Below are positions 13,213 to 33,563 of a stretch of DNA of 64,000 nucleotides, one piece after another (position 1 is the first letter of the stretch; each line of letters opens with the position of its first letter). This DNA is from Hartmannibacter diazotrophicus. GTDB lineage: Bacteria > Pseudomonadota > Alphaproteobacteria > Rhizobiales > Pleomorphomonadaceae. Position numbers and translations under genes: made by a program. Location: contig NZ_LT960614.1 in assembly GCF_900231165.1 (NCBI RefSeq), positions 1,858,550 to 1,922,549 on the forward strand, in the 5' to 3' direction. The notes under the pieces were generated by a model. It saw nothing but the letters and a program-made list of their open reading frames with translations, had not been told where the DNA came from and searched no databases.

Positions 13213-14625
13213 CTACTGGATGTTGTAGGGTACGACCGTGCGGTGATGCGGGTCGATGACGAGCTGGCGCTTGAGGGGCGGCGCGGCGCGCTGGCCGCAA
13301 TTGGCCCGCTCGCAGATGCGGCAGGAGATGCCGATCGGCTCGAAGGCCGTCTTGCTGGAAAGATCGAGCCCGTCGGCATAGACGAAATCCTCCGCGTAGG
13401 AAATTTCGCAGCCAAGCGCGATGGCGTAGTTGCGTTGGGGTGTCCTGAAGCCGTGGCCGCCCTTGGAAATCTCCGTCGCGATGCAGAGATAACGGACGCC
13501 ATCGGGCGTTTCCGCCAGCTGCCGGATGATGCGTCCCGGCGTCTCGAAGGCCCGGTGCACGTTCCACAGCGGGCAGGCGGCACCGAATCGCGCGAACTGC
13601 AGCTTGGCGGCGCTGTGACGCTTGGTGATGTTGCCGGCCCGGTCGATCTTGGCAAAAAAGATCGGGCTGCCCTTGAAGCCCGGGCGTTGCAGCGTACTGA
13701 GGCGGTGCGCAACCTGCTCGATGCCCGCCCCGAAATGGGCCGAGAGCAGTTCCAGATCGTGCCGCATGTCCTTGGCGGCGGCGCGGAACGGCCGGTAGGG
13801 CAGGACGAGGGCGCCGGCAAAATAGTTGTAGAGACCGATCTCGCAGATCTCCCTTGCTTCCGCCGAGCGGAATTCCGCCTTCTGCACAAGTGCCTCGACC
13901 GCCTCCTCCATTTCCAGCTGCCCGATCTGGAAAGCGAGCTGGAAATTGCGGGTGGAGAGCGGCTGATACGGGTTGAGGGTCAGAAGCCGCGTTTCCGGAT
14001 CGAAATGCCGGATGATATCGGCGTCCGCGGCCGTCCGGCCGATGCGCACGCCGTGCTGCCGTTCCAGATGCGTGACAAGCGCCGCGCCGCTTTCGATCTC
14101 GCCGATGCCGAGCTTGAGCGCGAGGTCCTCCGCGGCGATGTCGAGGTCGTGGACGTAATTGTCCACGAAATGAAAGAAGTCGCGGACTTCCTCGTAGGGG
14201 GTAGGGTCGGAAACACCGGTCCTTGACCCGAGTGAGGCATCGAGGCTTGCAAGCTGCTCGCTGTTCTTGCGGAAGGACTGGTGGCACAGGATCAGCGCGC
14301 GCGCGATATTCGGGGCATTCTGCGCGACGAGCTTCAGTTCCTGCAGGCCGACGGAAAATCCGTCGAAGACCGGATCGGCCATCGCTTCGGCCAGTGCGGA
14401 CAGCAGCCTGTCGCTGTCGCTGCCGGCGAGCGAGGCGATGTCGACATGGAGCTTGTCGGCAAGGGCCAGCAGCACGGCCGCCGAAACGGGACGCTGGTTG
14501 TTCTCGATCTGGTTGAGATAGCTGGCGGAAATGCCGATACGCTCGGCGAAGGCAGCCTGCGTTGCGTCGCTGGCTTCGCGGATGTCACGGATCTTGCGGC
14601 CGATGTAGAGCTTCTGAAACGCCAT
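13213..14625 (-). CDS. XRE-family short-chain fatty-acid-type regulator (ScfR/RamB-like)
   Basis: A protein of 470 residues. An N-terminal XRE helix-turn-helix (about residues 9-62, KIRDIREASDATQAAFAERI then ISASYLNQIENNQRPVS) is followed by an IrrE/ImmA-like region and a C-terminal domain with clustered cysteines (CRICERANCGQ), the layout of short-chain acyl-CoA responsive regulators such as RamB and the propionate/glyoxylate regulators of alphaproteobacteria. The zinc-protease HExxH of IrrE is lost: the equivalent stretch reads LAFQIGQLE. The ATG at 14625 gives the family N-terminus MAFQKLYIGRKIRDIR. Its target genes (isocitrate lyase, methylcitrate genes) are not in the window; the palindromes directly upstream suggest autoregulation. 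Confidence 0.87.
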   Translation of the reverse strand: MAFQKLYIGRKIRDIREASDATQAAFAERIGISASYLNQIENNQRPVSAAVLLALADKLHVDIASLAGSDSDRLLSALAEAMADPVFDGFSVGLQELKLVAQNAPNIARALILCHQSFRKNSEQLASLDASLGSRTGVSDPTPYEEVRDFFHFVDNYVHDLDIAAEDLALKLGIGEIESGAALVTHLERQHGVRIGRTAADADIIRHFDPETRLLTLNPYQPLSTRNFQLAFQIGQLEMEEAVEALVQKAEFRSAEAREICEIGLYNYFAGALVLPYRPFRAAAKDMRHDLELLSAHFGAGIEQVAHRLSTLQRPGFKGSPIFFAKIDRAGNITKRHSAAKLQFARFGAACPLWNVHRAFETPGRIIRQLAETPDGVRYLCIATEISKGGHGFRTPQRNYAIALGCEISYAEDFVYADGLDLSSKTAFEPIGISCRICERANCGQRAAPPLKRQLVIDPHHRTVVPYNIQ

Positions 14626-14973
14626 GTTTGCAACTTCGCAAAATGCAATTTGCATTTTTATACATATTGCAGGCGCGCCTTTCAATGGCTTCCGCCTTCC
14701 GGCCTAGTCGCCTAAGGAAATGCGCGGGAGATGGAACGTCAGGACGGATCGGCGAGGAACTGCTCCGTCCAGCAAATGCTGCACCTGCGAAGCGATCGGG
14801 CGCTGTTCCGTTGGCAATCCGCCAGCCGGACCTCGACAGACCCGTCCGCTGATCCACCGTGCACAGGCGTTCCCGTCACGAGAGCATGATGCTCCGGGCT
14901 CAAAGGTGCAGGGCGGCGCGAAAGGCACTCGCATGACTTCATGGGACTGCCGCCGCTCCAGGGAGAAATCGAC
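14626..14973. other. Divergent intergenic region between the ScfR-like and LuxR-type genes
   Basis: These 348 bp contain the ScfR-like operator array next to the minus-strand start. The right part leads to the LuxR-type gene, with a GGAGA ribosome site at 14961-14965. No further gene was recognised. Confidence 0.5.
14627..14657. promoter_or_regulatory. Adjoining TTTGC/GCAAA palindromes, probable ScfR autoregulatory operator
   Basis: Two palindromes meet here. TTTGC-N6-GCAAA spans 14627-14642 and AAATGCAA-T-TTGCATTT (perfect, 17 bases) spans 14641-14657. RamB-type regulators are known to bind TTTGC/GCAAA half-sites. The array begins 1 base upstream of the regulator's ATG, so binding would block its own transcription or initiation. 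Confidence 0.7.
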
Positions 14974-15478: not shown

Positions 15479-16210
15479 TCAGCCCTGAAGCCGCTGGCGG
15501 ATCGACACCCGCCTCGGCGCTTCGGTCGGCTCATCGACTGGCGGTGGGCTCTCGTCGCCATCCATCCCGGCGCCTTGCACCTCAGCCGCGGCGTCGGCCG
15601 GGTAGGCCTCCATCTGGGGCGTGGTCGTTGCCTCGATCTGTGGGGGTGCCGCTGCTGCGCCGTCCTGCTCCCCGACCTCGGCGATGGTGGTTTCGTCGGG
15701 CGCACCCTCGGCCATGTCGGGTTGGCCTTGCTCCGGAGCCTGCGTGAGCCGGCCGGTCGCCTTCTGGGCCGCCTGTTCGGCCTCGCTCAAGAAGCCGCGT
15801 CCCGCCTCCCAGATCGACGAATAGACCCGGTGGACCGGATTGTTGAAATCGTCGTCGTAGTCGTTCAGGCCGTCGATATTGGCGAGCACCGGGTTGGAGC
15901 GCCAGAGCTTGCGCAGTGCGGCCTTGCGCAGCGTGTCCGGCACGCCGCGTTTCATGAAGATCTTGAAGTCGTCGCCGAATGTCAGGCTGTCGAGATCGAT
16001 GGCCTCGGCGGCCTTGCGGTTCTCCTCAAGTTCGAGGTCGGGTGCCTGATCCTCGGGTGCCGCGCCGGCCTCGATAACATCATTGCGCTCGGCGGCAACC
16101 TCGGTCGGATCGTCGGGCACCCCGCCGCTCGCGATGGCCTGCTTGCGCCGCGACCAGCGCGTCAGAAAATTCTCTCCGCCATCATCCACCGGAGGCTTGC
16201 GCTCAGCCAT
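15479..16210 (-). CDS. DUF3306 domain protein, formate dehydrogenase accessory
   Basis: A protein of 243 residues. The N-terminal half (FLTRWSRRKQAI, LDLDSLTFGDDFKIFM-like block, VPDTLRKAALRKLWRSNPVL) is the DUF3306 signature; the C-terminal half is low-complexity, acidic and Pro/Ala/Glu-rich and probably unstructured. DUF3306 genes occur almost only beside DUF3305 and periplasmic formate dehydrogenase genes. Here the start overlaps the DUF3305 stop by 8 bp. The biochemical role is not known; assembly or electron-transfer support is likely from context. Confidence 0.85.
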   Translation of the reverse strand: MAERKPPVDDGGENFLTRWSRRKQAIASGGVPDDPTEVAAERNDVIEAGAAPEDQAPDLELEENRKAAEAIDLDSLTFGDDFKIFMKRGVPDTLRKAALRKLWRSNPVLANIDGLNDYDDDFNNPVHRVYSSIWEAGRGFLSEAEQAAQKATGRLTQAPEQGQPDMAEGAPDETTIAEVGEQDGAAAAPPQIEATTTPQMEAYPADAAAEVQGAGMDGDESPPPVDEPTEAPRRVSIRQRLQG

Positions 16211-16748
16211 CGAGCCGACCTCCGCTCGGGCGCTCGCGGTTGAGGAAGATCGGCTCCTTGCCGAAGAGATGCTCCTCTTCCTTGATGCCCTCGCGTCGGC
16301 GCTTCTTGAAGGCGTGCTCCACGTGGTGGTGATCGACGAAGGCCTTGATCGCCTCCTCGATTTCGGCGGGCATGGCGACCCGCTCGACGATGTCGTCGGC
16401 GTTGTCGTCGTGATCCTGCGCCAGATAGGGCGAGGCCGTCACCGCGTGGACATACCAGGGCAGGGGATGGCTGCCGTCCTCGTTGCGCCGCAGGACGACA
16501 TAAAGCGCCGGCACCTCGGCGTTGAAATTATGGACATAGGCTTCGGTCTCGGCGGCAAAGCAGGTGAGTTCGGAAACCCCCATGAAATAGCGGGTCACGC
16601 TGTCGTCTTCGACCAGAACGTCGCCCGGCTGAAGTCCGTCCGCGACTGGCATCACGCCGACCGGGATCCACGTGTGGCTGATCCATCGGGAGCTCGATTT
16701 GCGCCGTTCCACCAGAACGCCGACGAGGATCGTCAATTCGCGGTCCAT
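16203..16748 (-). CDS. DUF3305 domain protein, formate dehydrogenase accessory
   Basis: A protein of 181 residues that starts MDRELTILVGVLVERRKSSSRW, the typical DUF3305 opening (a statement of specificity such as SSRWI...HTWIPVGV), with no signal peptide or membrane helix. The start at 16748 is preferred over upstream ATGs because only from here does the sequence look like the family. It is divergently placed 89 bp from the multi-ferredoxin gene and overlaps DUF3306 by 8 bp. Function unknown; conserved in the same setting in many alphaproteobacteria. Confidence 0.85.
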   Translation of the reverse strand: MDRELTILVGVLVERRKSSSRWISHTWIPVGVMPVADGLQPGDVLVEDDSVTRYFMGVSELTCFAAETEAYVHNFNAEVPALYVVLRRNEDGSHPLPWYVHAVTASPYLAQDHDDNADDIVERVAMPAEIEEAIKAFVDHHHVEHAFKKRRREGIKEEEHLFGKEPIFLNRERPSGGRLDG

Positions 16749-16837
16749 GCCGATTGCGCCTTCCGTTTCCTCATGTTTTTCTTTCGAATTCCTATAAACA
16801 GGGTATCGTGTTTCAGCGCGACAGCAAGGGAATAAGA

Positions 16838-18862
16838 ATGAAGAACGCTCGCCGCCGCCTGATGCTCTGCAACTGCGAAAAATCGATGCGGATCGATGGC
16901 CAGACGATCGCACGGCAACTGGGCCTTGACGATCTCCCGGTCCACAGCCAGCTCTGCCGCTCGCAGGTCGACCGCTATGAGGCGGCGCTCGCCGATGGCG
17001 AGGAACTCCTCGTTGCCTGCACGCAGGAGAGCCCGCTTTTCGCCGAGATCGCCGAAGAGAAGGGCCTGGGCGCTCCGGCCTTCGTCAATATCCGCGAGCG
17101 GGCCGGCTGGACGGCGGACGAATCGCCGCTGGCCCCCAAGATCGCGGCCCTGATCGCGGCCGCCAACGCGCCCGTGCGGCCGGCGCGCCTGCGCACCATC
17201 GAGAGCGACGGCCTCTGCCTCGTCGTCGGCGCCGGGCAGGCGGCACTGGATGCGGCGGCGCTCCTCAACCGCACGCTCTCCGTGACGCTGCTCCTGAGCG
17301 ATGCCGACGATTGTCTCCTGCCCGAAGTGCTCGATTTTCCGGTCTTCTCCGGCCGGGTCCGCATGGCGTCCGGCGCGCTCGGCGGCTTCGATGCCACGAT
17401 TGACGGCTACGCCCCGATGCTGCCGTCGTCGCGCGCGACGCCCCAGTTCGCCATGGCACGCGACGGCGCGAAGACCACTTGCTCTGTCATCTTCGACATG
17501 ACCGGCGGCCCGGCGCTCTTCGCCCATGGCCGCGACGGATATTTCCGGGCCCAACCCGGCGATCCGGCGGCGGTGATGCGGGCCGTCTTCGAGGCATCGA
17601 CCTATGTCGGCGAGTTCGAAAAGCCGATCTACGTGACCTATGACGCCGCCATTTGCGTCCACGAGCGCTCGCGCAAGACCGGCTGCACCAAATGCCTCGA
17701 CAATTGCCCGGCCGGGGCCATCACGCCGGACGGCGACGGTGTCCGGATCGATGCCGACATCTGCGGCGGCTGTGGCAACTGCGCGGCCCATTGCCCGACG
17801 GGGGCCGTGGCCTACGCCTACCCCGACCGGGAAGGGATGATCGGCCGGATCCAGCGCCTGGCGAGCACTTATCTGGAGGCCGGCGGCGACAAGCCGGTCC
17901 TTCTGCTTCATGACGCCGGGCACGGAACGCCGCTGATCGGGGCGATGGCCCGCTTCGGCCGTGGCCTGCCCGCCCATGTCCTGCCGGTCGAACTGCATTC
18001 CGCCACCGGCGTCGGCCATGATCTCGTTCTTGCGGCGCTGGCCGCGGGTATCCGTGCGGTCGTCGTCCTGGCCGACCCGGCGAAGGCCGGCGAACTCGAT
18101 GCGGTCCGCGAGGAACTCGCCCTCGTCGATGCGCTGATGAAGGGCATCGGCATTGACGGTGCCCGCGCTCATCTGGCCGTTGAAAGCGATCCGGACGCGG
18201 TCGAGGCGCTGCTCTGGGATCTCGCGCCGCCAACCGAAATCTGCCGCACGGCGCCGCTCGCGACCGACAAAAAGCGCGAAACCGCCCGCATTGCGATCGG
18301 CACGCTCGCCAAGGCCGGCGCGCCGGCGAGTGATCTTTTCGTTCTGCCGGCCTCCGCCCCCTACGGCACGGTGGAGGTCAACAAGGAAACCTGTACGCTC
18401 TGCATGGCCTGCGTCGCATCCTGTCCCGTCGAGGCGCTGCGCGACACCCCGGAGGAGCCGAAGCTGCGCTTCGTCGAGGCCTCCTGCGTGCAGTGCGGCC
18501 TTTGCGAGGCGACATGCCCGGAAAGCGCCATCACGCTGCAGCCGCGCTACAATCTGGCAACGGCGGCCTTGAGCCCGGTGACGCTCAACGAGGACGAACC
18601 GGCGCTCTGTACCTCCTGCGGCAGACCCTTTGCGACCAAGGGCACCCTGCGGCGCATCCGCGAGATGCTCGGCGGCAAGAACCGCATGTTCCAGAGCGAG
18701 GAGCAGGTGGCATTGATCGGCATGTGCGACACCTGCCGGCTGGAAAGCCTGTCGAGCGGCGGACGCGATCCTTTCGCCCTGGCGCGGCGCGAGGCGCCGA
18801 GAACGACGGACGATTATCTCCGGGAACGTGAGCAGGACAAGGAAACGTCCGGCAAGAACTGA
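16838..18862 (+). CDS. Multi-[4Fe-4S] ferredoxin-like protein of the formate dehydrogenase island
   Basis: A 674-residue cytoplasmic protein. After a short LMLCNCEKS start comes a region with a weak nucleotide-binding-like stretch (LCLVVGAGQAALDAAALL), then ferredoxin motifs: CTKCLDNCPAGAI, CGGCGNCAAHCPTGAV, CTLCMACVASCPVEAL and CVQCGLCEATCPESAI, each a CxxCxxCxxxCP-type cluster site, and finally CTSCG and CDTC pairs. The ATG at 16838 follows an AAGGGA site. Family members sit next to DUF3305/3306 and Fdh3 genes; a role in supplying electrons or reducing power for cofactor assembly is inferred. It could equally be an electron-confurcating adaptor; no direct evidence. Confidence 0.85.
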   Translation: MKNARRRLMLCNCEKSMRIDGQTIARQLGLDDLPVHSQLCRSQVDRYEAALADGEELLVACTQESPLFAEIAEEKGLGAPAFVNIRERAGWTADESPLAPKIAALIAAANAPVRPARLRTIESDGLCLVVGAGQAALDAAALLNRTLSVTLLLSDADDCLLPEVLDFPVFSGRVRMASGALGGFDATIDGYAPMLPSSRATPQFAMARDGAKTTCSVIFDMTGGPALFAHGRDGYFRAQPGDPAAVMRAVFEASTYVGEFEKPIYVTYDAAICVHERSRKTGCTKCLDNCPAGAITPDGDGVRIDADICGGCGNCAAHCPTGAVAYAYPDREGMIGRIQRLASTYLEAGGDKPVLLLHDAGHGTPLIGAMARFGRGLPAHVLPVELHSATGVGHDLVLAALAAGIRAVVVLADPAKAGELDAVREELALVDALMKGIGIDGARAHLAVESDPDAVEALLWDLAPPTEICRTAPLATDKKRETARIAIGTLAKAGAPASDLFVLPASAPYGTVEVNKETCTLCMACVASCPVEALRDTPEEPKLRFVEASCVQCGLCEATCPESAITLQPRYNLATAALSPVTLNEDEPALCTSCGRPFATKGTLRRIREMLGGKNRMFQSEEQVALIGMCDTCRLESLSSGGRDPFALARREAPRTTDDYLREREQDKETSGKN

Positions 18863-19296: not shown

Positions 19297-20349
19297 TTAT
19301 TGTTTCTCCCGCCGTAGGGGCAGGTTGACGAGAATATTCTGCGGCTTCATCCGGATGACGTTGTCCGGCGTCATTGCAAGGCCGAGATAGGCCGGCTTGC
19401 CGCGCATGAAGACGCTGACGCTCTCCTGTTCGAGAAAGTCGGTCCGGAACAGGGCGGCGATCCGTGAAACCGCGCCCTCAGGCAGTGGATCCTCGTTGTA
19501 GAGCGCATTGAGGATGCCCGTCGCCTCCGCATCGAGACCGACATGCCATGACCAGTGTTCGTCGCGAACCGATTGCAGCGGTGTGACGCGGATTTCGATG
19601 TTGAGGAAATGCCTGACCCACCGCTCGACGACACGGGCAAAGGCGTCGAGGCCGGGCCGCGTGTAGCGGAAGTCGAGCGCGAAATTGAACTGGTCCGCAC
19701 GGTCGGCATAGTCGCCGGCATTGGTCCGAGACAGGACATCGAGACTGATTTCCCGCTGCGGCATGCCGGCATCCGCGAGAAGGGCATCGAGACCGCCGAG
19801 GCCGCCGCGCTGCGAATACATCTCCACCACTTCGGCATCGGCGAGCATCAGCTGCTCGTCGTCGATCGTGACCTTCTGGTCGCGAAAGAAGATTTCGGCG
19901 GCGCGGTAGACGAACGGGTCTTCCTCGCCATCCAGGATATGCGCCAGGATCACATGCACGAGCTGTTCGTAGAAGACGGGCGGAACGCGCGGCGCCGTCT
20001 CGCTGAAGAGGCCGAGATAGGCGCCTTCGAGCGTGCCGTGCTTCACCAGATGATCGCGGTAGCGCAGGAGCAGCCGGTAGTTTTCCGCCGTATCCTGATC
20101 GACCATTGCAGCAAGCTCGTCATTGCCGACGGGCGCGAGCGGATCCATCATCAGCCGTTCGAAGAGACGGTGTTCGACCTCGCAGCTCTCGTCGACGGGG
20201 TGGATTTCCGGCCGGGTGTAATAGGCGCGCAGGAAATCCGGCGTCACCTCAAGCCAACCGGCAGCGTCCGGCGCAGTCAGATGAAGGCCGGACGACTTCC
20301 AGGCGATCGGCCTTTGCGTCGTGGTGGGAATGTGATGCTCCATGGTCAT
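19297..20349 (-). CDS. DUF6352-like accessory protein of the formate dehydrogenase island
   Basis: A 350-residue soluble protein with no signal peptide or metal motif. The central part reads AGWLEVTPDFLRAYYTRPEI, FERLMMDPLAP, and later EIFFRDQKVTIDDEQ, which I recall as the pattern of DUF6352 proteins, found beside formate dehydrogenase and ligase-like genes; that name is from memory and not verified. The start overlaps the stop of the ligase-like gene (ATGA), so the two are translationally coupled. ATG at 20343 is an equally possible start. Function unknown. Confidence 0.65.
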   Translation of the reverse strand: MTMEHHIPTTTQRPIAWKSSGLHLTAPDAAGWLEVTPDFLRAYYTRPEIHPVDESCEVEHRLFERLMMDPLAPVGNDELAAMVDQDTAENYRLLLRYRDHLVKHGTLEGAYLGLFSETAPRVPPVFYEQLVHVILAHILDGEEDPFVYRAAEIFFRDQKVTIDDEQLMLADAEVVEMYSQRGGLGGLDALLADAGMPQREISLDVLSRTNAGDYADRADQFNFALDFRYTRPGLDAFARVVERWVRHFLNIEIRVTPLQSVRDEHWSWHVGLDAEATGILNALYNEDPLPEGAVSRIAALFRTDFLEQESVSVFMRGKPAYLGLAMTPDNVIRMKPQNILVNLPLRREKQ

Positions 20350-21104
20350 GAGACGGGTGCCAGCGGTTGCATGCTTCTACGGAAGACGTCACTGAGGTGG
20401 ATCACCATTCTTGCGTCATTGGTGTCGAGCTGGAAGCCCCCCGAAGGATCGAGGCCGGCCATGCGGCCTTGCAGGGAACGCCCGTGAAGCGGGACCTCCA
20501 CATCGCGCCCGAGCCCATCCGCGCAGGCGAGGAATGAGCGGCGGGCAAGAGCAAAGCCCTCTTCCTGCCATTCGTCGAGCCGCGCGAGGAAATGCCGGGC
20601 AACGGCCCCCAGTATCTGACTGCGATCCAGATCGCCGCAACCTTCCTCGAAAAGAACGGTCGTGCCCGGATTGAGGCCGGGATCGTTCAAAGCTTCCTCC
20701 CGATCGACAGCGACACTGAAATCGACGACGAGTCGCGGCGGGATGTCGTCGGCGCCGGTCTCTGGCGGCACCCAAAGTCCGACACGGCCGACGTCCGCAC
20801 CATTGACCAGCACGGTCTGCGGCCAGCGCAACGTCACCGCCAGATTGGGCGGCCCGATAGCGCCAAGCGCGTCGGCGATCGAGACCATGAGAAGCGGAAC
20901 GGCCTGCACGGCCTCAGAGAAGGGCACCTCCGGTTCCAGAACGATGGCCGCTTGGGCGTGTGTCGTCCGCAGCGACCAGAGGAGATCCCCGGCGCCAAGA
21001 TCGCCGCTCCGCGCGCCCTCGATCGCCAGGCGCACGACATCTTCGTCGGTGACAACGGCACGCGGCGCATAGGCAGGCGGAAATCGGGGATCGGACGGGC
21101 TCAT
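20346..21104 (-). CDS. Biotin/lipoate A/B protein ligase-like protein, possibly non-catalytic
   Basis: A protein of 252 residues. The region LLWSLRTTHAQAAIVLEPEV ... LAVTLRWPQTVLVNGADVGR resembles the BirA/LplA catalytic core (KWPND...K..G), and a short C-terminal domain (GRSLQGRMAGLDPSGGFQL) matches the BirA-type small domain. However the GRGRRGR loop is missing and the lysine expected after WPxD is not visible, so it may have lost ligase activity. The ATG at 21104 is chosen as the first one that gives family-like sequence. It is conserved beside Fdh3-type operons in related genomes as far as I recall; a role in Fdh or cofactor maturation is inference. Confidence 0.7.
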   Translation of the reverse strand: MSPSDPRFPPAYAPRAVVTDEDVVRLAIEGARSGDLGAGDLLWSLRTTHAQAAIVLEPEVPFSEAVQAVPLLMVSIADALGAIGPPNLAVTLRWPQTVLVNGADVGRVGLWVPPETGADDIPPRLVVDFSVAVDREEALNDPGLNPGTTVLFEEGCGDLDRSQILGAVARHFLARLDEWQEEGFALARRSFLACADGLGRDVEVPLHGRSLQGRMAGLDPSGGFQLDTNDARMVIHLSDVFRRSMQPLAPVS

Positions 21105-21127: not shown

Positions 21128-21256
21128 TCAATTGAGACGCACGTTGCTGCTGGAGTAGGCCGAGGCCGATGAGGTTTCGAGCGTGCCATTGAGGACGTAG
21201 CTGGCGCCGACCGCGACAACAAGAAGGACCACGACACTGGCGAGAAAGGCTTTCAT
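21128..21256 (-). CDS. 42-residue membrane/exported miniprotein in the fdh3 operon
   Basis: A very short gene between the WD40-cytochrome gene (8 bp gap) and the ligase-like gene (23 bp gap), starting MKAFLASVVVLLVVAVGASY, i.e. one Lys then a hydrophobic helix, followed by a Ser/Ala-rich tail ending SSNVRLN. It looks like a signal anchor or an exported peptide. Similar small proteins ending in a VRL-type motif occur near rhizobial respiratory dehydrogenase operons. Its tight placement within the operon argues that it is real. Function unknown; it could be a small subunit that anchors the cytochrome or Fdh3C. Confidence 0.6.
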   Translation of the reverse strand: MKAFLASVVVLLVVAVGASYVLNGTLETSSASAYSSSNVRLN

Positions 21257-21264
21257 GATCCGTC

Positions 21265-22671
21265 CTACTCCATGATCTGATTGTCTTTTGCGGTGCTGAC
21301 CTGCGGGTTGGTCGCCCGCTTGAGGAAGGAAACCAGCGCATCGCGCCGCTCGACTGCCTTGAGCCTTTGCACCGGCATCTTGGTTCCCGGCACCATGACG
21401 TCCGGCCCGTCGTCGAAGAGCGCGCCGACCGTCTTCTCCGTCCAGACGATGCCGGACCGCTTCAGGGCATCCGAATAGACATAACCCTCGACCGAGCCGG
21501 CAGTTCGACCGAACAGGCCGAAAAGCGTCGGTCCGGCCCGGTGCGCCCCGTCCGGCGTCAGCGTGTGGCAGACGGAACATTTGCGCTGGAACTCGACTTC
21601 GCCCGGATCGTCGGCGGCCTGGCGCTGAAAGCGGCGGGGATAGACGGACTGGACCTCATCGCGTGCAAGACGCGGTTCCACCTGCCAGAGAATCGCGAAG
21701 TCGTCGAGGCCGGCCCGGAAGAGGCGATGGCCATCCGGCATGAAGGAGAGCCCCCAGATCGGTCCGTAGGCGTCGTGATAGTCCTCGGCGAGAACGCCCG
21801 TCTCGATGTCGAAGACGCGGATATGTCCGTCGCCGCTGCCGCTTGCAAGCCAGCCGACCCGCGGCGAGACGGCCAGCGAGAGGATCGGGTGCTCACCTTC
21901 GGAGAGCACGGTCACGTCCCCCGTCAGAAGGTCGACAACGCCGGTCTTGCCGTCGATGCTGCCGAAGGCGAGTTCGGAAGCGCCGGGCAGGGGCGCGAGC
22001 ACGTTGATGCCCCAGCCGTTGTCGGCAACGACGGTGGGGTCGCCGTCGATGCGGCCGTCGTCGGTGAGCGCGAAGCCCCGGATTTTGCCGTCGTAGCAGC
22101 CGGTGAAAAGGGTCTTGCCGTCGAGCGAGAAAGCGACGGCGTTGACGTTGCCCCGATGCCCTTCGGCCCGCGCGATTTCCCGGGCGTCCGCAATCGCATG
22201 GACACGGGCCGTGCCATCCCAGCGCGCGCTTGCGGCAAAACGGCCGTTCGGGCTGACGGCGACGTCCAGCACCTTGTCCGGCGTGTCGGTCGCGCGCGCG
22301 ATCAATCGCCCGTCCGAAAGATCCCAGACCGCGACACTGCCGTCGTCGGATACGGACACGGCCTTGTTGCTGGAAGGGACGAAGGCAACGTCGTTGACGG
22401 CGGCCTCGTGGCCGATCAATCGGGCGCGGACCGTTCCGGTCTTGCCAACAAGATCCCAGAGAATGACGGAATAATCGAAGGAAGCCGTCAGGGCCCTCCC
22501 GCCGTCGTCGTTGACCGTGACCGCCTTGATCGGGCCGCCATGGCCGGCGAGGCGCGCGGGCAGGGTGTCATCGGCGGCGGCGGGCAACGGCTCTCCGAAC
22601 GTGGTCAGCAGAAGGGCGAGCGGAAGCAGCGTCTGCAGCGGCTGTGTCAGGAAAGGGGCGGCGATGATCAT
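21265..22671 (-). CDS. Periplasmic WD40-repeat / cytochrome c fusion protein
   Basis: A 468-residue exported protein. A signal peptide covers residues 1-33 (ending PLPAAADD). Residues about 38-335 are WD40 repeats (LIGHEAAVNDVAFVPSSNKA, SVAVWDL, GHRGNVNAVAFS, DGHIRVFDIETG), a beta-propeller. Residues about 350-468 form a class I cytochrome c: haem site CSVCH at residues 365-369 and an axial Met in the GTKMP segment. The gene is 21 bp after the Fdh3 gamma gene, so this cytochrome may accept electrons from Fdh3 or dock to it through the propeller. This fusion is a distinctive accessory of such clusters. Confidence 0.85.
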   Translation of the reverse strand: MIIAAPFLTQPLQTLLPLALLLTTFGEPLPAAADDTLPARLAGHGGPIKAVTVNDDGGRALTASFDYSVILWDLVGKTGTVRARLIGHEAAVNDVAFVPSSNKAVSVSDDGSVAVWDLSDGRLIARATDTPDKVLDVAVSPNGRFAASARWDGTARVHAIADAREIARAEGHRGNVNAVAFSLDGKTLFTGCYDGKIRGFALTDDGRIDGDPTVVADNGWGINVLAPLPGASELAFGSIDGKTGVVDLLTGDVTVLSEGEHPILSLAVSPRVGWLASGSGDGHIRVFDIETGVLAEDYHDAYGPIWGLSFMPDGHRLFRAGLDDFAILWQVEPRLARDEVQSVYPRRFQRQAADDPGEVEFQRKCSVCHTLTPDGAHRAGPTLFGLFGRTAGSVEGYVYSDALKRSGIVWTEKTVGALFDDGPDVMVPGTKMPVQRLKAVERRDALVSFLKRATNPQVSTAKDNQIME

Positions 22672-22692: not shown

Positions 22693-23868
22693 TCATTCGG
22701 CGGCTTGCCCGCGATAGGGTCTTGGACGCTGCGACGTTCCCTCGGAGGTCATCTCCTCCACCCACAGCGAGTGGTGCTCGCGGGCCCAGTTAAGGTCGAC
22801 TTCGCCCGATCCCATCGCGTCGAAGGCACCCTCCATGCCGATCGAGCCGATGTAGATATGGGCAAGGATCACGCAGATGAGGAAGACTGCCATCGCCGCA
22901 TGCCAGATGGTGTTGAGCTGCTGCTCCATGATGGGCGCGTAGGGCGTGTCGGGCAGGCCGGTGAGGGCCGGGATGTCGATGCCGATCCCCTTGAGCGCCG
23001 TGAAGGTGTCGGAGAAGAAAGTGTAGTGGAAGGGATAAAGCAGCGCCCAGCCCGAGATGCAAAGCGACAGCCCGCAGAGCATCACGGACCAGAAGATGAG
23101 CTTCTGGCCGGCATTGAACTTCTTCGCCGGCGGATGGGAGTGCTTCGACAGGAGGCCGCCAGCCTTGGCCAGCCAGACGATGTCGTGCCGGTTGGGCACG
23201 TTGTGGATGACCCAGGTGACGAAGGCGATCGCCAGGCCTAGCATGAATGCGAAGGCCACATAGTTGTGCGACAGCTTGAGGAAGGCCGACATCGGGCCGA
23301 ACAGATCCTTGCCGATGATGGGCATGACCAACTCACGTCCGAACGAGATGTTGAGCCCGCTGATCGCCAGGATGATGAAGGAGAGCGCCATCAGCCAGTG
23401 GGCCATGCGCTCCAGGCCGGAAAAGCGCGGGATGAGCACACCTGAAAGGCCCTTTTCGACCCGGATTCGCCCGCGCAGCGCGAAGAACAGCGACAGGAGC
23501 AGCAACGTGCCGACAATGGCGAGGCCGAAATAATCGTAGAGGGAGCCGTTGCGCAGGGACCGCCAGTCCTCGCCGCCGGCCTGGATCAGTGTGGCCGCCT
23601 TGGAATCCGGGATCGTGATATTGCCGGTCATGCCGGCCTTCACGCCGCGCCAGAGATCGGAATCGGACGTGTTGCCGAGCGCGCCGCCGGGCGGATTGCC
23701 GCCGACCGCATCCGGCGCCGATGTGGACACCGCATTGTCCGGCGGGCGGACCGAACTCTGGGCAAGGGACGGGGAGGGAAGGACAAGAAAGAGCGCGACG
23801 ACAATGGCCGCGAGCCACATCAATGCGCGGAAAACAGGAAGACGGTCAGGCCCAGCGGTCGCGTGCAT
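22693..23868 (-). CDS. fdh3C: Formate dehydrogenase gamma subunit (cytochrome b, FdoI family)
   Basis: A protein of 391 residues. A signal-like N-terminus (ALMWLAAIVVALFLVLPSPSLAQ) and a periplasmic stretch of about 110 residues precede four membrane helices. Haem-b histidines are seen in HWLMALSFIILAISGL, LSHNYVAFAF, and HAAMAVFLICVILAHIYIG; the C-terminal part (GSGEVDLNWAREHHSLWVEE) is conserved in FdoI/FdnI. The extended N-terminus is typical of rhizobial Fdh3C. The ATG at 23868 has AGGTGA a few bases upstream. It anchors FdhA/B to the membrane and passes formate electrons to quinone or to the neighbouring cytochrome c. Confidence 0.9.
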   Translation of the reverse strand: MHATAGPDRLPVFRALMWLAAIVVALFLVLPSPSLAQSSVRPPDNAVSTSAPDAVGGNPPGGALGNTSDSDLWRGVKAGMTGNITIPDSKAATLIQAGGEDWRSLRNGSLYDYFGLAIVGTLLLLSLFFALRGRIRVEKGLSGVLIPRFSGLERMAHWLMALSFIILAISGLNISFGRELVMPIIGKDLFGPMSAFLKLSHNYVAFAFMLGLAIAFVTWVIHNVPNRHDIVWLAKAGGLLSKHSHPPAKKFNAGQKLIFWSVMLCGLSLCISGWALLYPFHYTFFSDTFTALKGIGIDIPALTGLPDTPYAPIMEQQLNTIWHAAMAVFLICVILAHIYIGSIGMEGAFDAMGSGEVDLNWAREHHSLWVEEMTSEGTSQRPRPYRGQAAE

Positions 23869-23975
23869 GGTTTCACCTTGTGCATTCGGTTCCCGTGGAA
23901 CTCTCAAGACGCTTTGAGGGACGGAGTTCACCGCCCGCCCCTCAGTCGCAGCATGTCGAATGGACAGGATGAGCC

Positions 23976-24572
23976 TCAGCCCCCGGTCTTCTTCTCGTAG
24001 GCCGTGCCCCAGCCCCAGGCACCCGCGCCGAAGCCACGGGCGACGACGCGCTCGCGATAGATGGACGAGACGACGTCGCCGTCACCGGCCAGAAGCGCCT
24101 TGGTGGAGCACATCTCCGCGCAGAGCGGCAGCTTGCCCTCGGCAAGGCGGTTGCGGCCGTATTTCTGGAACTCGGCGGCGGAGTTGTCCTCTTCCGGGCC
24201 GCCGCCGCAGAAGGTGCACTTGTCCATCTTGCCGCGCGAACCGAAGTTCGAGGCCTGCGGATACTGCGGCGCGCCGAAGGGGCAGGCATAGAAGCAGTAG
24301 CCGCAACCGATGCACAGGTCCTTGGAGTGCAGCACCACGCCGTCGGACGTCTGGTAGAAGCAGTCCACCGGGCAGACGGCCATGCACGGCGCGTCCGAGC
24401 AGTGCATGCAGGCGACCGAGATCGTCCGCTCGCCGGGCTTGCCGTCGTTGATGGTGACGACGCGCCGGCGGTTGACGCCCCACGGAACCTCGTTCTCGTT
24501 CTTGCAGGCGGTGACGCAGGCGTTGCACTCGATGCAGCGCTCAGCGTCGCAGAGGAATTTCATGCGTGCCAT
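23976..24572 (-). CDS. fdh3B: Formate dehydrogenase beta subunit, four [4Fe-4S] clusters (FDH3 beta)
   Basis: A protein of 198 residues, rich in cysteine motifs: CIECNACVTACK, CMHCSDAPCMAVCP, CIGCGYCFYACP and CTFCGG...CAEMCSTKA give four cubane clusters that relay electrons from the alpha to the gamma subunit. There is no Tat signal or C-terminal anchor, so it is exported with alpha. Length and sequence match the short FDH3-type beta rather than the longer FdnH. It follows fdh3A by 10 bp with a GGAGG site before the ATG. Confidence 0.93.
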   Translation of the reverse strand: MARMKFLCDAERCIECNACVTACKNENEVPWGVNRRRVVTINDGKPGERTISVACMHCSDAPCMAVCPVDCFYQTSDGVVLHSKDLCIGCGYCFYACPFGAPQYPQASNFGSRGKMDKCTFCGGGPEEDNSAAEFQKYGRNRLAEGKLPLCAEMCSTKALLAGDGDVVSSIYRERVVARGFGAGAWGWGTAYEKKTGG

Positions 24573-24582
24573 TGGTTCCTCC

Positions 24583-27570
24583 TTATGCCCGCTCGATGCG
24601 GCAGAGCGTTGTTTTCGTTTCCTGCATCTGCGTCACGGAATCATACCCGTAGGTCTGGGCCGTGTTGCAGGCTTCGCCGAGCACATAGGGGTCCGCGCCC
24701 TCGGGGTATTTCGATCTGAGGTCGTTGCCCTGGAAATAGCCGCCGAAGTGGAAGGGTGTGAAGATCACGCCGCGACCGACCCGTTCGGTGACCATGGCCA
24801 TGACCTTGATCTTGCCGCCCTCCGGGCTGTGCAGCCAGACCGCCTCGCGATCCCGGATGCCGAGATTGTTGGCATCCGACGGATTGATTTCCACGAACAT
24901 GTCCTGCTGCAGTTCGGCGAGCCACGGGTTGGACCGGGTCTCGTCGCCGCCGCCTTCATATTCGACAAGGCGGCCCGAGGTCATGATCAGCGGGAAATCG
25001 CTGGAATAGTCGTTCTTCTGGATCGAGGCATAGGCCGTCGGCACACGCCAGAAGGTCTTGTCCTCGTAGGTCGGATAATCCGCCACCAGATCCCGCCTTG
25101 GCGTATAGAGCGGCTCGCGGTGGATGGGCACGGGGTCCGGGAAGGTCCAGACCACGGCGCGGGCCTTGGCGTTGCCGTAGGGTGCACAGCCGTGCTTGAT
25201 CGCGACGCGCTGGATGCCGCCGGAAAGATCGGTCTTCCAGTTCACGCCGCCGATCTTCTTGTCGTAATCGGAGGGAATATCGCCGGTCTGGGAGGTTTCG
25301 CCGACTTCCTCGTCCACCTTCGGTCGTTCGGTCGCTAGGCCGGCGATATATTCGATCATCCGCTTCTCGTAGGGGGTGAGGTCGCTGTCCCAGCCGAGCT
25401 GCTTCAGCATCTCGTAGGTGAACTCGGGATAGCCGTCCTCGATCTCCGACCCGACGGGCCATGAGCCCTCGGCGAGCAGGTTTTCGCCGTTCCGCTCGAC
25501 ACCGAAGCGGGCGCGGAAGCCCATGCCGCCCTTGGCGACCGGGATGGACGTGTCATAGAGGTTGGCGGAACCTGGATGGTTCATTTCCGGCGTGCCCCAG
25601 GACGGCCAGGGAAGGCCGTAGAAGTCGCCGTCGTTCGGGCCACCGACCGCCCGGAGCGTCGTCTTGTCGAAGGTGTACTGGTTCGCCATGTGCGACTTCA
25701 GCCGCTCCGGCGACTGTCCGGTGTAGCCGATGGTCCACATGCCGCGATTGAACTCGCGGGTGATGTCCTCGACGACCGGCTCGCCGTTCTCCACCTTGAT
25801 GTTGCGGAACATGCGGTCGGCAAAGCCGAACTTCTCCGCGAACTTGTGCATGATGACGTGGTCGGGCAGCGACTCGAACAGCGGCTCCACGACCTTCTCG
25901 CGCCATTGCAGCGACCGGTTCGAGGCGGTGACCGAGCCGGAGGTCTCGAACTGGGTCGAGGCCGGCAGCAGATAGACGCCGTCGGTCCGGTCCTGCAGCA
26001 CCGCCGTCATGGTCGGATAGGGGTCGACGACGACGAGCGTGTCGAGCATGCCCATCGCCTTCTGCATTTCGGGCAGACGGGTCTGGGAGTTGGGCGCGTG
26101 ACCCCAGAAGACCATGATCTTCGTGTTGTCCGGCTGTTCCAGGTTTTCCTTCTTTTCAAGGACGCCGTCGATCCAGCGCGAGACCGGAATGCCGGACTCG
26201 TTCATCATCGGCTTGTCCTTGCCGTCCTTGCCCTTCATCGTGGCAAAGCGGCCCTTCAGCCAGTCGAGATCCTCTTCCCACACGCGCGCCCAGTGCCCCC
26301 AGGCGCCTGCGGTCAGGCCGTAGTAGCCCGGCAGGGTGTCGGCAAGCACGCCAAGGTCCGTCGCACCCTGCACATTGTCGTGGCCGCGGAAGATGTTGGT
26401 GCCGCCGCCGGCCTTGCCCATGTTGCCGAGCGCGAGCTGGAGCACGCAGTAGGCGCGGGTGTTGTTGTTGCCGGTGGTGTGCTGGGTGCCGCCCATGCAC
26501 CAGATGACGGTGCCGGGACGGTTGTCGACCATCAGCCGTGCGACGCGCTTCAGCTGCGAACCCGGAACGCCCGTGACCCGTTCGGTCTCTTCGGGCGTCC
26601 ACTTGGCGACCTCGGTGCGGATCTGGTCCATGCCCCAGACGCGCTGGCGGATGAACTCCTGGTCTTCCCAGCCGTTGTCGAAGATGTGCCACAGGATGCC
26701 CCAGACGAGGGCGACGTCCGTGCCGGGACGGAAGCGGACGTATTCATCCGCATGGGCCGCCGTGCGGGTGAAGCGCGGGTCGAGCACGATCAGCGGCGCG
26801 TTGTTCTCTTCCTTGGTCTTGAGCAGGTGCATCATCGAGACCGGATGCGCCTCGGCCGGATTGCCGCCGATGAGGAAGATCGCCTTGGAATTGTGGATGT
26901 CGTTGTAGGAATTGGTCATGGCGCCATAGCCCCAGGTGTTGGCAACACCTGCGACCGTGGTCGAGTGACAAATCCGCGCCTGGTGGTCGACGTTGTTCGA
27001 GCCCCAGTAGGCCGCGAACTTGCGGAACAGATAGGCCTGTTCGTTGGAATGCTTGGCCGACCCGAGCCAGTAGACCGAATCCGGCCCGGCGCTGTCGCGC
27101 ACGGCCGTCATCTTGTCGCCGATCTCGTTGATCGCGTCGTCCCACGACATGCGTTCCCATTTGCCGCCGACGAGCTTCATCGGGTACTTCAGCCGGCGCT
27201 CGCCGTGGGCATGCTCGCGCACCGACGCGCCCTTGGCGCAGTGGGCACCGAGATTGAACGGGGAATCGAAGCCGGGCTCCTGGCCGATCCAGACGCCGTC
27301 CTGGACCTCGGCCAGCACCGTGCAGCCGACGGAGCAATGCGTGCAGACGGATTTCTTGATGTCGACGCCCGACGCACCCGTGCCGGTGGTCTGTGCCTGC
27401 GCCTTCGTCACCATGCCGCCGGAGAGGCCGGTAATCGCTGCGCCGCCTCCAATGGCTAGGCCCGACCGTTTCAGGAAGGTTCGCCGGTCGACGGCGCCAT
27501 TCCCGAACTCAGCCAGGTGAGAGGACATTCGGGGGCCTCGCGCAACCCCATTCGCCTTCTTCCTGAGCAT
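24583..27570 (-). CDS. fdh3A: Periplasmic formate dehydrogenase alpha subunit, Mo/W-bis-PGD catalytic subunit
   Basis: A 995-residue protein. A twin-arginine signal (DRRTFLKRSG, about residue 28) is followed by VCTHCSVGCTV with the cysteines of the proximal [4Fe-4S] cluster. The metal ligand is cysteine, at about residue 201 (RICHSTTVAG), not selenocysteine, and the following His is the conserved catalytic one. The remaining domains are typical of DMSO-reductase-family formate dehydrogenases, including an FRGHDNVQGATD segment. I prefer the ATG at 27570, seven bases after GGAGA; ATG 27576 is six bases further out. It oxidises formate to CO2 in the periplasm. Confidence 0.93.
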   Translation of the reverse strand: MLRKKANGVARGPRMSSHLAEFGNGAVDRRTFLKRSGLAIGGGAAITGLSGGMVTKAQAQTTGTGASGVDIKKSVCTHCSVGCTVLAEVQDGVWIGQEPGFDSPFNLGAHCAKGASVREHAHGERRLKYPMKLVGGKWERMSWDDAINEIGDKMTAVRDSAGPDSVYWLGSAKHSNEQAYLFRKFAAYWGSNNVDHQARICHSTTVAGVANTWGYGAMTNSYNDIHNSKAIFLIGGNPAEAHPVSMMHLLKTKEENNAPLIVLDPRFTRTAAHADEYVRFRPGTDVALVWGILWHIFDNGWEDQEFIRQRVWGMDQIRTEVAKWTPEETERVTGVPGSQLKRVARLMVDNRPGTVIWCMGGTQHTTGNNNTRAYCVLQLALGNMGKAGGGTNIFRGHDNVQGATDLGVLADTLPGYYGLTAGAWGHWARVWEEDLDWLKGRFATMKGKDGKDKPMMNESGIPVSRWIDGVLEKKENLEQPDNTKIMVFWGHAPNSQTRLPEMQKAMGMLDTLVVVDPYPTMTAVLQDRTDGVYLLPASTQFETSGSVTASNRSLQWREKVVEPLFESLPDHVIMHKFAEKFGFADRMFRNIKVENGEPVVEDITREFNRGMWTIGYTGQSPERLKSHMANQYTFDKTTLRAVGGPNDGDFYGLPWPSWGTPEMNHPGSANLYDTSIPVAKGGMGFRARFGVERNGENLLAEGSWPVGSEIEDGYPEFTYEMLKQLGWDSDLTPYEKRMIEYIAGLATERPKVDEEVGETSQTGDIPSDYDKKIGGVNWKTDLSGGIQRVAIKHGCAPYGNAKARAVVWTFPDPVPIHREPLYTPRRDLVADYPTYEDKTFWRVPTAYASIQKNDYSSDFPLIMTSGRLVEYEGGGDETRSNPWLAELQQDMFVEINPSDANNLGIRDREAVWLHSPEGGKIKVMAMVTERVGRGVIFTPFHFGGYFQGNDLRSKYPEGADPYVLGEACNTAQTYGYDSVTQMQETKTTLCRIERA

Positions 27571-27614
27571 CGTCATGTCTCCGCTGCAGTGGTCTGCAAT
27601 TCGTTAGATGTTTG

Positions 27615-27702: not shown

Positions 27703-27903
27703 TCAGAAGCGTGCCGAGGCGTAGAACGCCTTCACATGCTCGCTTTCGCGGTAACCGGCGCTCGATTTGCCGGCCTCCGGTTCCGCTGCCTCGGCGCCTG
27801 TGGCCGAGGCGACGACCGCGCCGCCTGCTGCTGCCGTTCCAAGTCCGGCAAGCTTGAGGAAATCGCGGCGGTCCGGCCGGATCTCCGTCTCCCGTTTCGT
27901 CAT
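27703..27903 (-). CDS. Formate dehydrogenase region Tat-signal miniprotein
   Basis: A protein of 66 residues, almost entirely a Tat signal: RPDRRDFLKLAGLGTAAAGG followed by GAEAAEPEAGKS and a tail ending HVKAFYASARF. It is a known small companion of Fdh operons, annotated in databases as a formate dehydrogenase region Tat target. It lies between the TorD-like chaperone gene (104 bp) and fdh3A (132 bp). The mature peptide of about 25-30 residues may be a small structural subunit or a chaperone decoy; its function is not established. Confidence 0.8.
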   Translation of the reverse strand: MTKRETEIRPDRRDFLKLAGLGTAAAGGAVVASATGAEAAEPEAGKSSAGYRESEHVKAFYASARF

Positions 27904-28007: not shown

Positions 28008-28613
28008 CTACATGTCGAAGGCCGCCATCTCGATGTCCATGAACAGCCGCCCGATCGTGCCGACCGGCTTGTAGAACCTGGCGGATTTGGCTCTCTCCAG
28101 ATCGCTGAAGAAATGCGGCGCCCACTTGCCGACATGGCGGTCGAAGAATTCCTTCTGGGCCGAAATCGGCTGAGGGTCGCCGAAACTGCCGTCGATCAGC
28201 CCGGTCATCATGTCCATCAGCGCGGCGATGTGATCTTCCGGTTCCTTGCTCTGCGCCGAGCGGGCGATCTGGAATCCGGCCATGTCCCGGCGCAGGCGCG
28301 CCAGCGGCTTCTCGTTGAGAAACCCGGTCAGGTAGTAGGAACTGTAGGGCAGGAGTTCGCCGCGTCCGACGCCGACAAACAGCTCGTGGAACTCCTCGGC
28401 ACACTCTTTCGGCGAAACGTCGCCCGCAAGCTGGGCGAGGCGCGCAACAGCCTGTCCGAGTGTTGTGTCGTCGCCGACGAGTGACTGCAAGGTGGCGCGC
28501 GTCGCAGAATCGATTGGCGCCGCGAGCAAACGTGCCAGCAACCGGTAGAGATTGACCCTGAGTTGGTCCGGCTCCGCAAGCACGGATTGGATGGCGGTAT
28601 TATGTTTTGTCAC
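28008..28613 (-). CDS. TorD/DmsD-family chaperone for the Tat-exported formate dehydrogenase
   Basis: A 201-residue all-alpha protein. The segment FHELFVGVGRGELLPYSSYYLTG is the family's conserved EY.xLF.G.g...pp..S.Y block, and the C-terminal DRHVGKWAPHFFSDLERAK contains the second conserved H..W...F region. TorD-like chaperones bind the Tat signal and apo-enzyme until the cofactor is inserted. It is the first gene of the minus-strand fdh3 operon and is divergent from the tungstate importer, 156 bp apart, linking metal uptake with enzyme maturation. Confidence 0.88.
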   Translation of the reverse strand: MTKHNTAIQSVLAEPDQLRVNLYRLLARLLAAPIDSATRATLQSLVGDDTTLGQAVARLAQLAGDVSPKECAEEFHELFVGVGRGELLPYSSYYLTGFLNEKPLARLRRDMAGFQIARSAQSKEPEDHIAALMDMMTGLIDGSFGDPQPISAQKEFFDRHVGKWAPHFFSDLERAKSARFYKPVGTIGRLFMDIEMAAFDM

Positions 28614-28767: not shown

Positions 28768-28781
28768 TTATGCAGGATTTT
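28768..28781. promoter_or_regulatory. AT-rich motif overlapping the tupB start
   Basis: TTATGCAGGATTTT covers the tupB start codon and is close to the motif at 36871-36888. The wider context (AAATTATGCA in both) matches in most of 20 positions. A protein bound here would repress tupBCA translation initiation or transcription. Low confidence because the core is AT-rich and overlaps coding sequence. Confidence 0.35.
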
Positions 28782-29477
28782 GCACACGAATTTGCGCAAG
28801 CCTTTGGTTTGATCCTTTCCGGGGACGCCGAACTCTGGGCCATCGTCGGCTTGTCCTTGCGGGTGTCGCTGTTTGCCGTCTTTCTGGCGGCGCTTTTCGG
28901 CATGCCAATTGGCGCGCTGCTGGCGGTCGGACGTTTCCCCGGTCGCGGGATCGCGATTCTGCTCCTCAACGCCATGATGGGGCTGCCGCCTGTGGTTGTG
29001 GGCCTGGGCGTCTATCTGATGCTCTCGAACGCCGGGCCGCTCGGCGTTCTGCATCTGCTCTACACACCGACTGCAATGATCATCGCGCAGTTCATTCTGG
29101 TAACGCCGATCCTGGCGGCGCTGACGCGGCAGGTCATAACGGACCTCGACGCCGAATACGCCGAACAGCTTCGCTCCTTCGGGATTTCCCGCCTGTCGTC
29201 GGTGCCGACCCTGCTTTGGGACGCCCGTCAGAGCCTGCTGACCGCCTTGCTGGCCGGGTTCGGCCGCGCAATCGCGGAAGTCGGCGCCGTGATCATCGTC
29301 GGCGGCAACATCAATCACGTGACCCGCGTCATGACGACGACCATCGCGCTCGAGACCTCGAAGGGCAATCTCTCGCTCGCCATGGCTCTCGGGGCGATCC
29401 TGATTCTCCTGGCCATCACCATCAACGCCCTGCTCAGCATCATCGGCGCGTCGACCTCCGAGGCCGCCCATGCTTGA
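28770..29477 (+). CDS. tupB: Tungstate ABC transporter permease TupB
   Basis: A protein of 235 residues with about five to six membrane helices and the ABC permease EAA loop (ITDLDAEYAEQLRSFGISRL). The block GFGRAIAEVGAVIIVGGNIN, followed by TRVMTTTIALETSKG, is typical of TupB/WtpB-type oxyanion permeases. It is the first gene of tupBCA and its 3' end overlaps tupC by 8 bp. TupABC importers prefer tungstate over molybdate. Confidence 0.9.
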   Translation: MQDFAHEFAQAFGLILSGDAELWAIVGLSLRVSLFAVFLAALFGMPIGALLAVGRFPGRGIAILLLNAMMGLPPVVVGLGVYLMLSNAGPLGVLHLLYTPTAMIIAQFILVTPILAALTRQVITDLDAEYAEQLRSFGISRLSSVPTLLWDARQSLLTALLAGFGRAIAEVGAVIIVGGNINHVTRVMTTTIALETSKGNLSLAMALGAILILLAITINALLSIIGASTSEAAHA

Positions 29478-30279: not shown

Positions 30280-30339
30280 CAGCGCGCCGGAACGGTGCGC
30301 ACGAGGACGAAGACCAACTCAAGAAACTGGGAGAAGGAT

Positions 30340-32175: not shown

Positions 32176-32195
32176 CTGGGCAAGGCCTCCCACGG

Positions 32196-33452: not shown

Positions 33453-33563
33453 GGACCGAACTGCCTCCTTGTTTCTTTTGAATTCTTCTCGGGAATGATT
33501 GTTTGTTGCAGTGCCGGCGCGGCCGGTCAAGCGCAGGTCCGGCTTGCCGACCAGCCGTCCTCT

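Follow-up and report, generated by a model that had tools for sequence, protein, structure and literature searches.

A WD40 propeller-cytochrome c fusion protein is a frequent companion of the formate dehydrogenase FDH3 in Alphaproteobacteria and a candidate for its periplasmic electron-transfer partner

In the 64,000-nt stretch of Hartmannibacter diazotrophicus DNA analyzed here (the window), the gene that follows the formate dehydrogenase gene fdhC encodes a single protein composed of a WD40 propeller and a class I cytochrome c. This propeller-cytochrome fusion is a frequent companion of the formate dehydrogenase FDH3 in Alphaproteobacteria, where it constitutes a conserved family. As to its function, which we infer from genomic company and conservation, we regard it as an evenly balanced proposition that the fusion protein serves FDH3 as a dedicated electron-transfer partner in the periplasm, in which case it would probably be a second outlet beside quinone. 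It is easy to take the E. coli enzyme as the guide to electron fate at the periplasmic FDH3 of aerobic Alphaproteobacteria; should most such clusters encode a dedicated cytochrome, the scheme from formate to quinone would be incomplete and formate yields would need recalculation.

The fusion gene is an open reading frame of 468 aa on the minus strand (21265-22671) with an ATG start and without internal stops. A signal peptide discerned by eye (residues ∼1 to 33) is followed by the propeller (∼40 to 332), a linker, and the cytochrome (∼355 to 453), which carries the heme motif CSVCH at residues 365 to 369 and Met432 as the candidate distal ligand. Pfam places WD40 (PF00400) at 131.1 bits (cut-off, 27) and Cytochrom_C (PF00034) at 28.0 bits (cut-off, 21.3; residues 358 to 451). 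The AlphaFold2 model, built from a 64-sequence alignment (mean pLDDT 90.1, pTM 0.86), has beta strands between residues 40 and 330 and cytochrome helices from residue 356 on. The top fold match of the propeller is PDB 5yzv_B (Z 42.5, rmsd 1.7 over 285 residues), and it also superposes on seven-bladed designs such as 7big_A; with the cytochrome part searched alone, mitochondrial-type cytochromes c rank first, the best being tuna-type 1cyc (E 8.8e-24). The WD repeats found by Pfam and the propeller fold of the predicted structure identify the first domain as a WD40 propeller, just as the CxxCH motif, the distal Met, and the similarity to cytochrome c identify the second by sequence as a class I cytochrome c. 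A hydrophobic 12-mer occurs within the first 60 residues in 60/64 aligned homologues, and the protein is predicted to be secreted. Open reading frame, Pfam, AlphaFold2, and fold match together bear out the first-pass annotation in its claim that a propeller and a CSVCH cytochrome share one secreted-looking protein. Its description of the combination as unusual stands insofar as the combination is real, and falls insofar as it is not unique to this genome but belongs to a conserved family in FDH3 clusters.

A single CxxCH motif in the entire protein rules out both a multiheme protein and a multiheme partner of the FdhABC3 type. The only NCBIfam match, NF043008 (cytochrome c-550, CycA), falls on the cytochrome part and, at 61.8 bits, lies far below its cut-off of 240, so that identity with CycA was rejected; the likeness to CycA is confined to the cytochrome part, and the attached propeller sets the fusion protein apart. 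A beta-propeller and a cytochrome c also share one chain in quinohemoprotein alcohol dehydrogenases and in cytochrome cd1, enzymes in which the propeller carries the catalytic cofactor (PQQ or heme d1). Compared with these through family and fold searches, the fusion protein has a WD40 propeller instead: a PQQ family is absent among the 25 of 37 Pfam matches listed, and the fold list, which covers residues 37 to 333 only, contains no known propeller-cytochrome chain among the matches listed, an absence that carries no weight against such relatives.

The fusion gene begins 21 nt downstream of fdhC, and the 42-aa reading frame of a microprotein starts 8 nt past its end. Judged from this spacing, the fusion gene is very probably cotranscribed, in one operon, with the genes for a TorD-type chaperone, a small Tat protein, fdhA, fdhB, and fdhC. 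The features of this region are as follows.

15479-16210, minus strand: DUF3306 protein of FDH3 clusters (PF11748, synteny)
16203-16748, minus strand: DUF3305 protein of FDH3 clusters (PF11749, synteny)
16754-18862, plus strand: polyferredoxin-like 4Fe-4S protein of FDH3 clusters (Pfam, synteny); true start probably near 16835
19297-20349, minus strand: DUF6352 protein of FDH3 clusters (PF19879, synteny)
20346-21104, minus strand: biotin/lipoate ligase-like protein of FDH3 clusters (PF16917, synteny)
21128-21256, minus strand: single-membrane-span microprotein, 42 aa, MKAFLAS...SSSNVRLN (open reading frame and profile)
21265-22671, minus strand: WD40 propeller-cytochrome c fusion protein (Pfam, AlphaFold2, fold match, PDB match of the cytochrome part, ligand conservation)
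22693-23931, minus strand: fdhC, cytochrome b gamma subunit (TIGR01583 143.7 bits, cut-off 115.85; alignment to 1kqf_C)
23976-24572, minus strand: fdhB, FDH3 beta iron-sulfur subunit, 198 aa (NF038355, FDH3_beta, 343.3 bits, cut-off 240; PDB 9vap_B, E 3e-100)
24583-27576, minus strand: fdhA, Tat-exported alpha subunit with molybdopterin domains (Pfam; PDB 9vap_A, 1422.5 bits)
27703-27903, minus strand: small Tat-signal protein of formate dehydrogenase regions (TIGR02811 49.7 bits, cut-off 48.45)
28008-28613, minus strand: TorD/NarJ-type chaperone (PF02613)
28770-31188, plus strand: tungstate/molybdate-type ABC transporter, comprising permease, ATPase, and a binding protein assigned by eye (open reading frames; permease NF041773, TupB, 164.9 bits, below the cut-off of 320)

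With fdhC 21 nt upstream and matched by TIGR01583, and with FdhB above the FDH3_beta cut-off, the position next to Fdh3C proposed in the first reading is established. FdhA remains under the cut-off of TIGR01591 (471.8 of 666.25 bits), and its assignment as the alpha subunit of formate dehydrogenase-N (TIGR01553) was rejected at 331.7 of 814.2 bits; it has Cys (ARICHSTT) at the position of Sec in FdnG. A promoter and terminator scan gave nothing useful, its counts being close to those of shuffled controls. The TupB score below cut-off makes tungstate no more than the likely substrate of the transporter; similar tungstate/molybdate-type transporters flank several related FDH3 clusters. Beside the operon lie a helix-turn-helix regulator and a MoeA-like protein, both assigned by eye (31288-33530, minus strand), and at the other end of the region (13213-14685, minus strand) a regulator that combines an HTH, an IrrE-like peptidase, and a short-chain fatty acyl-CoA regulator domain. 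The linkage of DUF3305 and DUF3306 to fdh operons is already on record (PMC4464133).

Across genomes, the tie to FDH3 that the first reading had supposed proved specific. A GTDB genome scan with the fusion protein returned 31 loci, with fdhA, fdhB, and fdhC beside the match in 28; one of the remaining three has fdhA near its end (L032), and the other two match the propeller only (L035 and L036; 28% and 25% identity). Among 297 genomes of the window's order, 99 have the fusion protein (E up to 1e-40), 101 have FDH3 beta, and 95 have both (Fisher p 1.2e-64, with relatedness ignored). In the other four carriers, the gene sits at a contig end with fdhC as its neighbor, and in one of them part of fdhB is also present. 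Where both genes share a contig, the distance does not exceed 15 kb in 90/90 genomes: the fusion gene is directly downstream (<3.5 kb) in 64, ∼11.6 to 13.2 kb upstream and on the same strand in 24, and on the opposite strand in 2; the remaining 5 of the 95 genomes have the two on different contigs. Chance or artefact was rejected: within the order, 53/122 sampled genera have the gene, and it also turns up in additional families of the class.

The sample of 289 genomes from the window's class gave the fusion protein in 30, FDH3 beta in 39, and both in 29. Here, 26/27 same-contig pairs are within 15 kb and two genomes have the genes on different contigs; the exception is G331, in which 85 kb separate the fusion gene from FDH3, and the single carrier without FDH3 beta (G522) again has fdhC adjoining the fusion gene. 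In G274, the fusion gene is on a contig other than that of FDH3, and fdh genes are absent from the 19 kb around it. Of 388 genomes sampled across the phylum, 22 gave matches spanning propeller and cytochrome; all 22 are from the window's class and have FDH3 beta. The beta subunit as such is present in 60/388, including 31 genomes outside the class that are without a full fused match, and 12 FDH3 regions outside the class contained neither the fusion protein nor, by pattern search, a class I cytochrome c; we therefore consider the fusion protein an alphaproteobacterial add-on in these samples. At most five candidates were scored per genome for order and class, four for the phylum, and 18 for the genome of the window itself, and absences in these counts are not proof. 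FDH3 beta had zero matches in 14 control genomes.

Carriers of the FDH3 cluster include Methylobacterium, Bradyrhizobium, and Sinorhizobium. In Salipiger sp. CCB-MM3, the fusion gene directly follows that of the gamma subunit, and on plasmid pB of Sinorhizobium meliloti LMB1 the fusion gene (‘hypothetical protein’) shares a cluster with fdh3B, which lies ∼10 kb downstream. Among 15 matches in plasmid records, 10 are labeled ‘c-type cytochrome’ and 2 ‘hypothetical protein’, with 3 unannotated at the place. In the window's own family, 11 other genomes yielded the fusion protein in none and FDH3 beta in one, a patchy occurrence of the FDH3 cluster that may reflect gain by transfer or repeated loss.

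Cys365, Cys368, His369, and Met432 are invariant in 77/77 fused homologues, together with Gly380, Pro381, Arg389, Tyr397, Trp410, and Gln435 in the cytochrome and His44, Gly45, Gly46, Phe65, Asp66, and His88 in the propeller. This set comprises 83 unique open reading frames minus six (one WD40 only, one in the wrong frame, the three of L145, L149, and L152 without a cytochrome domain, and one fused yet unlinked); four further loci are without an open reading frame across the whole match. In the 64 of the 77 sequences that were aligned after a redundancy cut, the mean majority frequency is higher for cytochrome columns (0.68) than for propeller columns (0.53). In a tree with few columns and a thin outgroup, all 64 fused cytochrome domains fall on one side of a 100/99 branch, with three cytochromes of the window's own genome and the separate cytochromes of L149 and L152 on the other, and the fusion thus probably arose once. 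Descent of the two separate cytochromes from the fused domain was unsupported, as they group with the stand-alone cytochromes in what is a weak comparison (five such rows, few columns, midpoint rooting).

These two loci belong to a set of natural variants of the slot after fdhC. In L149 and L152, a propeller-only protein adjoins fdhC, a separate class I cytochrome c gene is found a few hundred bases off on the other strand, and the microprotein sits between the two. L145 has the propeller only, and CxxCH is absent from every frame of at least 50 aa in its 19.4 kb; the propellers of all three loci are WD40 proteins in the same slot and candidate relatives of the fused propeller. Four loci without the fusion protein (L101, L105, L216, and L217) have a NarI-like cytochrome b and a CCG/4Fe-4S protein directly after fdhC. 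The family scan covers the L216 pair, whose cytochrome b matches TmcC (117.6 bits) and HmcE (84.3 bits) and whose Fe-S protein matches HmcF (246.7), TmcB (224.9), and DsrK (220.5), all below cut-offs; the pairs of the other three were assigned by similarity to L216 (44 to 93% identity). Such Tmc/Hmc/Dsr-type combinations of cytochrome b with an Fe-S protein are best known from sulfate reducers; here, a Tmc/Hmc-like pair is seen beside fdhC in genomes of the window's class, L108 included. L108 has both the fusion protein and such a pair, at separate places, which rejects strict mutual exclusion of the two. At 11 other loci, the Tmc/Hmc-like pair and, by pattern, a class I cytochrome c are both absent, one of these (L151) having a different CxxCH protein ∼8 kb from fdhC. 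Two loci are cut by a contig end near the slot, where one of them (L102) retains a weak match to the fusion protein. Together, the variants show a variable slot that holds electron-transfer modules of two kinds or is empty.

It is from co-occurrence with FDH3, linkage, invariant ligands, the better-conserved cytochrome, the split-gene variants, the Tmc/Hmc-like pair in the same slot, and the single branch that we derive a role as electron-transfer partner. Several observations speak against it: FDH3 beta occurs without the fused protein outside the class and, within the class, in some clusters lacking any nearby class I cytochrome c; L108 has both modules, and FDH3 and the fusion gene are 85 kb apart in G331 and on different contigs in G274; and the propeller of L145, without a cytochrome, fits a structural role better. 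The last point leads to a reading that we hold rather unlikely, namely, that the protein is an assembly, stabilizing, or regulatory factor, its propeller scaffolding periplasmic FDH3 and its heme sensing redox state or heme supply instead of carrying bulk electrons. WD40 propellers are usually protein-binding scaffolds, and the maturation-type neighbors TorD and the lipoate ligase-like protein would suit such a factor. However, a scaffold or sensor would not lead one to expect a cytochrome domain with invariant ligands that is better conserved than the propeller, nor the full separate cytochrome c that L149 and L152 keep beside theirs.

If the fusion protein is an electron-transfer partner, whether it would replace quinone or supplement it can be judged from FdhC, which aligns over both halves to E. 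coli FdnI (1kqf_C) with heme-b histidines at H178, H222, H344, and H358. From 153 aligned FdhC sequences, we compared four groups totaling 104, focusing on four His (FdnI 18, 57, 155, and 169) and an Asn/Gly pair (FdnI N110/G112), which in FdnI serve as heme b ligands and quinone site. These residues are kept in 73/73 clusters with the protein (71 fused and 2 split, L149 and L152), and likewise in 10/10 clusters of the class without it and 16/16 outside the class; five second FdhC copies retain the His in 5/5 and the Asn/Gly in 4/5. By these residues FdhC looks able to reduce quinone, which would make a cytochrome route most likely a second outlet and not a replacement, and one that would be dispensable for turnover. 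A cytochrome outlet could thus coexist with an intact quinone outlet, while a degenerate FdhC, which would have served as proof of a bypass, was rejected.

The first-pass annotation had formate electrons bypass quinone on their way to a cytochrome oxidase. A pure bypass is not indicated by the FdhC comparison. The other half of the claim, an acceptor leading toward the oxidase, gains from the invariant heme ligands and from a cytochrome domain that resembles the feeders of cytochrome c oxidase. In its strict form, in which FDH3 electrons exit mainly via the cytochrome and FdhC is an anchor only, the bypass appears very improbable: the shared operon and synteny would agree with it, as would the direct electron exchange of the homologous SoFdhAB dimer with electrodes (PMC13397495), but the intact heme-b and quinone-site residues tell against it. 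Distinctly unlikely, if somewhat less so, is that the protein is an ordinary cytochrome c on a tether, relaying electrons from bc1, fed by FDH3 quinol, to the oxidase and holding FDH3, bc1, and the oxidase together. The mitochondria-type, slightly basic cytochrome domain (median net charge of +2 in 64 sequences) and the quinone-competent look of FdhC would be in keeping with this, but three other class I cytochromes of the same genome could serve such a relay, and all 22 phylum-sample genomes with a full fused match have FDH3.

As an electron-transfer partner of FDH3, the fusion protein might work as follows. The propeller would dock on the periplasmic side of FdhABC and would keep the cytochrome within tunneling distance of an FdhB cluster or of the periplasmic heme b of FdhC. 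Formate electrons would then reduce the cytochrome, which could pass them to cytochrome c oxidase or to the soluble cytochrome c pool. The potential of so mitochondria-like a cytochrome would probably be high; multiheme cytochrome c3 is of low potential. Taken further, alphaproteobacterial FDH3 might be a branched enzyme that delivers to quinone via FdhC and, independently of quinone, to a propeller-borne cytochrome outlet (a formate:cytochrome c oxidoreductase), burning formate fast on a terminal oxidase, with a modular outlet slot that holds the Tmc/Hmc-like pair instead in some lineages; this wider scheme we offer tentatively, as a somewhat doubtful one.

Known formate dehydrogenases provide both likeness and contrast. 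Formate dehydrogenase-N (FdnGHI, 1kqf) is alike in its Tat-exported alpha, iron-sulfur beta, and diheme cytochrome b gamma subunits, the latter with the same aligned histidines, whereas it lacks a c-type cytochrome partner; the FDH3 beta subunit is short here (198 aa), and the alpha subunit has Cys in place of what in FdnG is presumably Sec. The closest solved relative of FdhA and FdhB is Shewanella oneidensis FdhAB (9vap, chains A and B), which a 2026 review (PMC13397495) presents as an oxygen-tolerant tungsten enzyme (W-Cys) in direct electron exchange with electrodes and, unlike FdhABC here, as an A-B dimer only. The same text has the periplasmic formate dehydrogenases FdhAB and FdhABC3 of sulfate reducers (Nitratidesulfovibrio) feed tetraheme cytochrome c3. 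That system is a precedent of another kind: it likewise passes electrons from a periplasmic formate dehydrogenase to a c-type cytochrome, but a multiheme one, while the fusion protein has one mitochondrial-type heme beside a propeller. Methylobacterium FDH3 has been termed ‘cytochrome-linked’ (PMC5784242) and placed in the periplasm (PMC12180729). In M. aquaticum, a gene designated c07840 is counted with fdh3ABC in a ‘cytochrome-linked formate dehydrogenase complex’, its product being undescribed in that passage of PMC5784242; it may or may not be a homologue of the fusion protein. A description of the fusion protein was not found in the open-licence PMC literature. A c-type cytochrome acceptor for a periplasmic formate dehydrogenase thus has precedent, and the propeller-cytochrome version is still unnamed. 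If the partner role is true, the protein would act as a natural wire to a relative of an oxygen-tolerant, tungsten-dependent formate dehydrogenase, an enzyme with uses in CO2 electrochemistry.

Two further observations concern the clusters themselves. FDH3 clusters of a second type, of which seven were seen, have no match to the fusion protein, the lipoate ligase-like protein, or DUF6352 in the stretch covered, and one genome (G171) contains clusters of both types. The 42-aa microprotein, for which Pfam gave no match, could be a small FDH3 subunit that has gone unnoticed. A profile built from five seeds finds it in 114/221 loci, a redundant set in which part of the matches are weak; it also occurs in three FDH3 clusters that lack the fusion protein (L150, L151, and L214) and in three loci outside the window's class (L164, L165, and L167).
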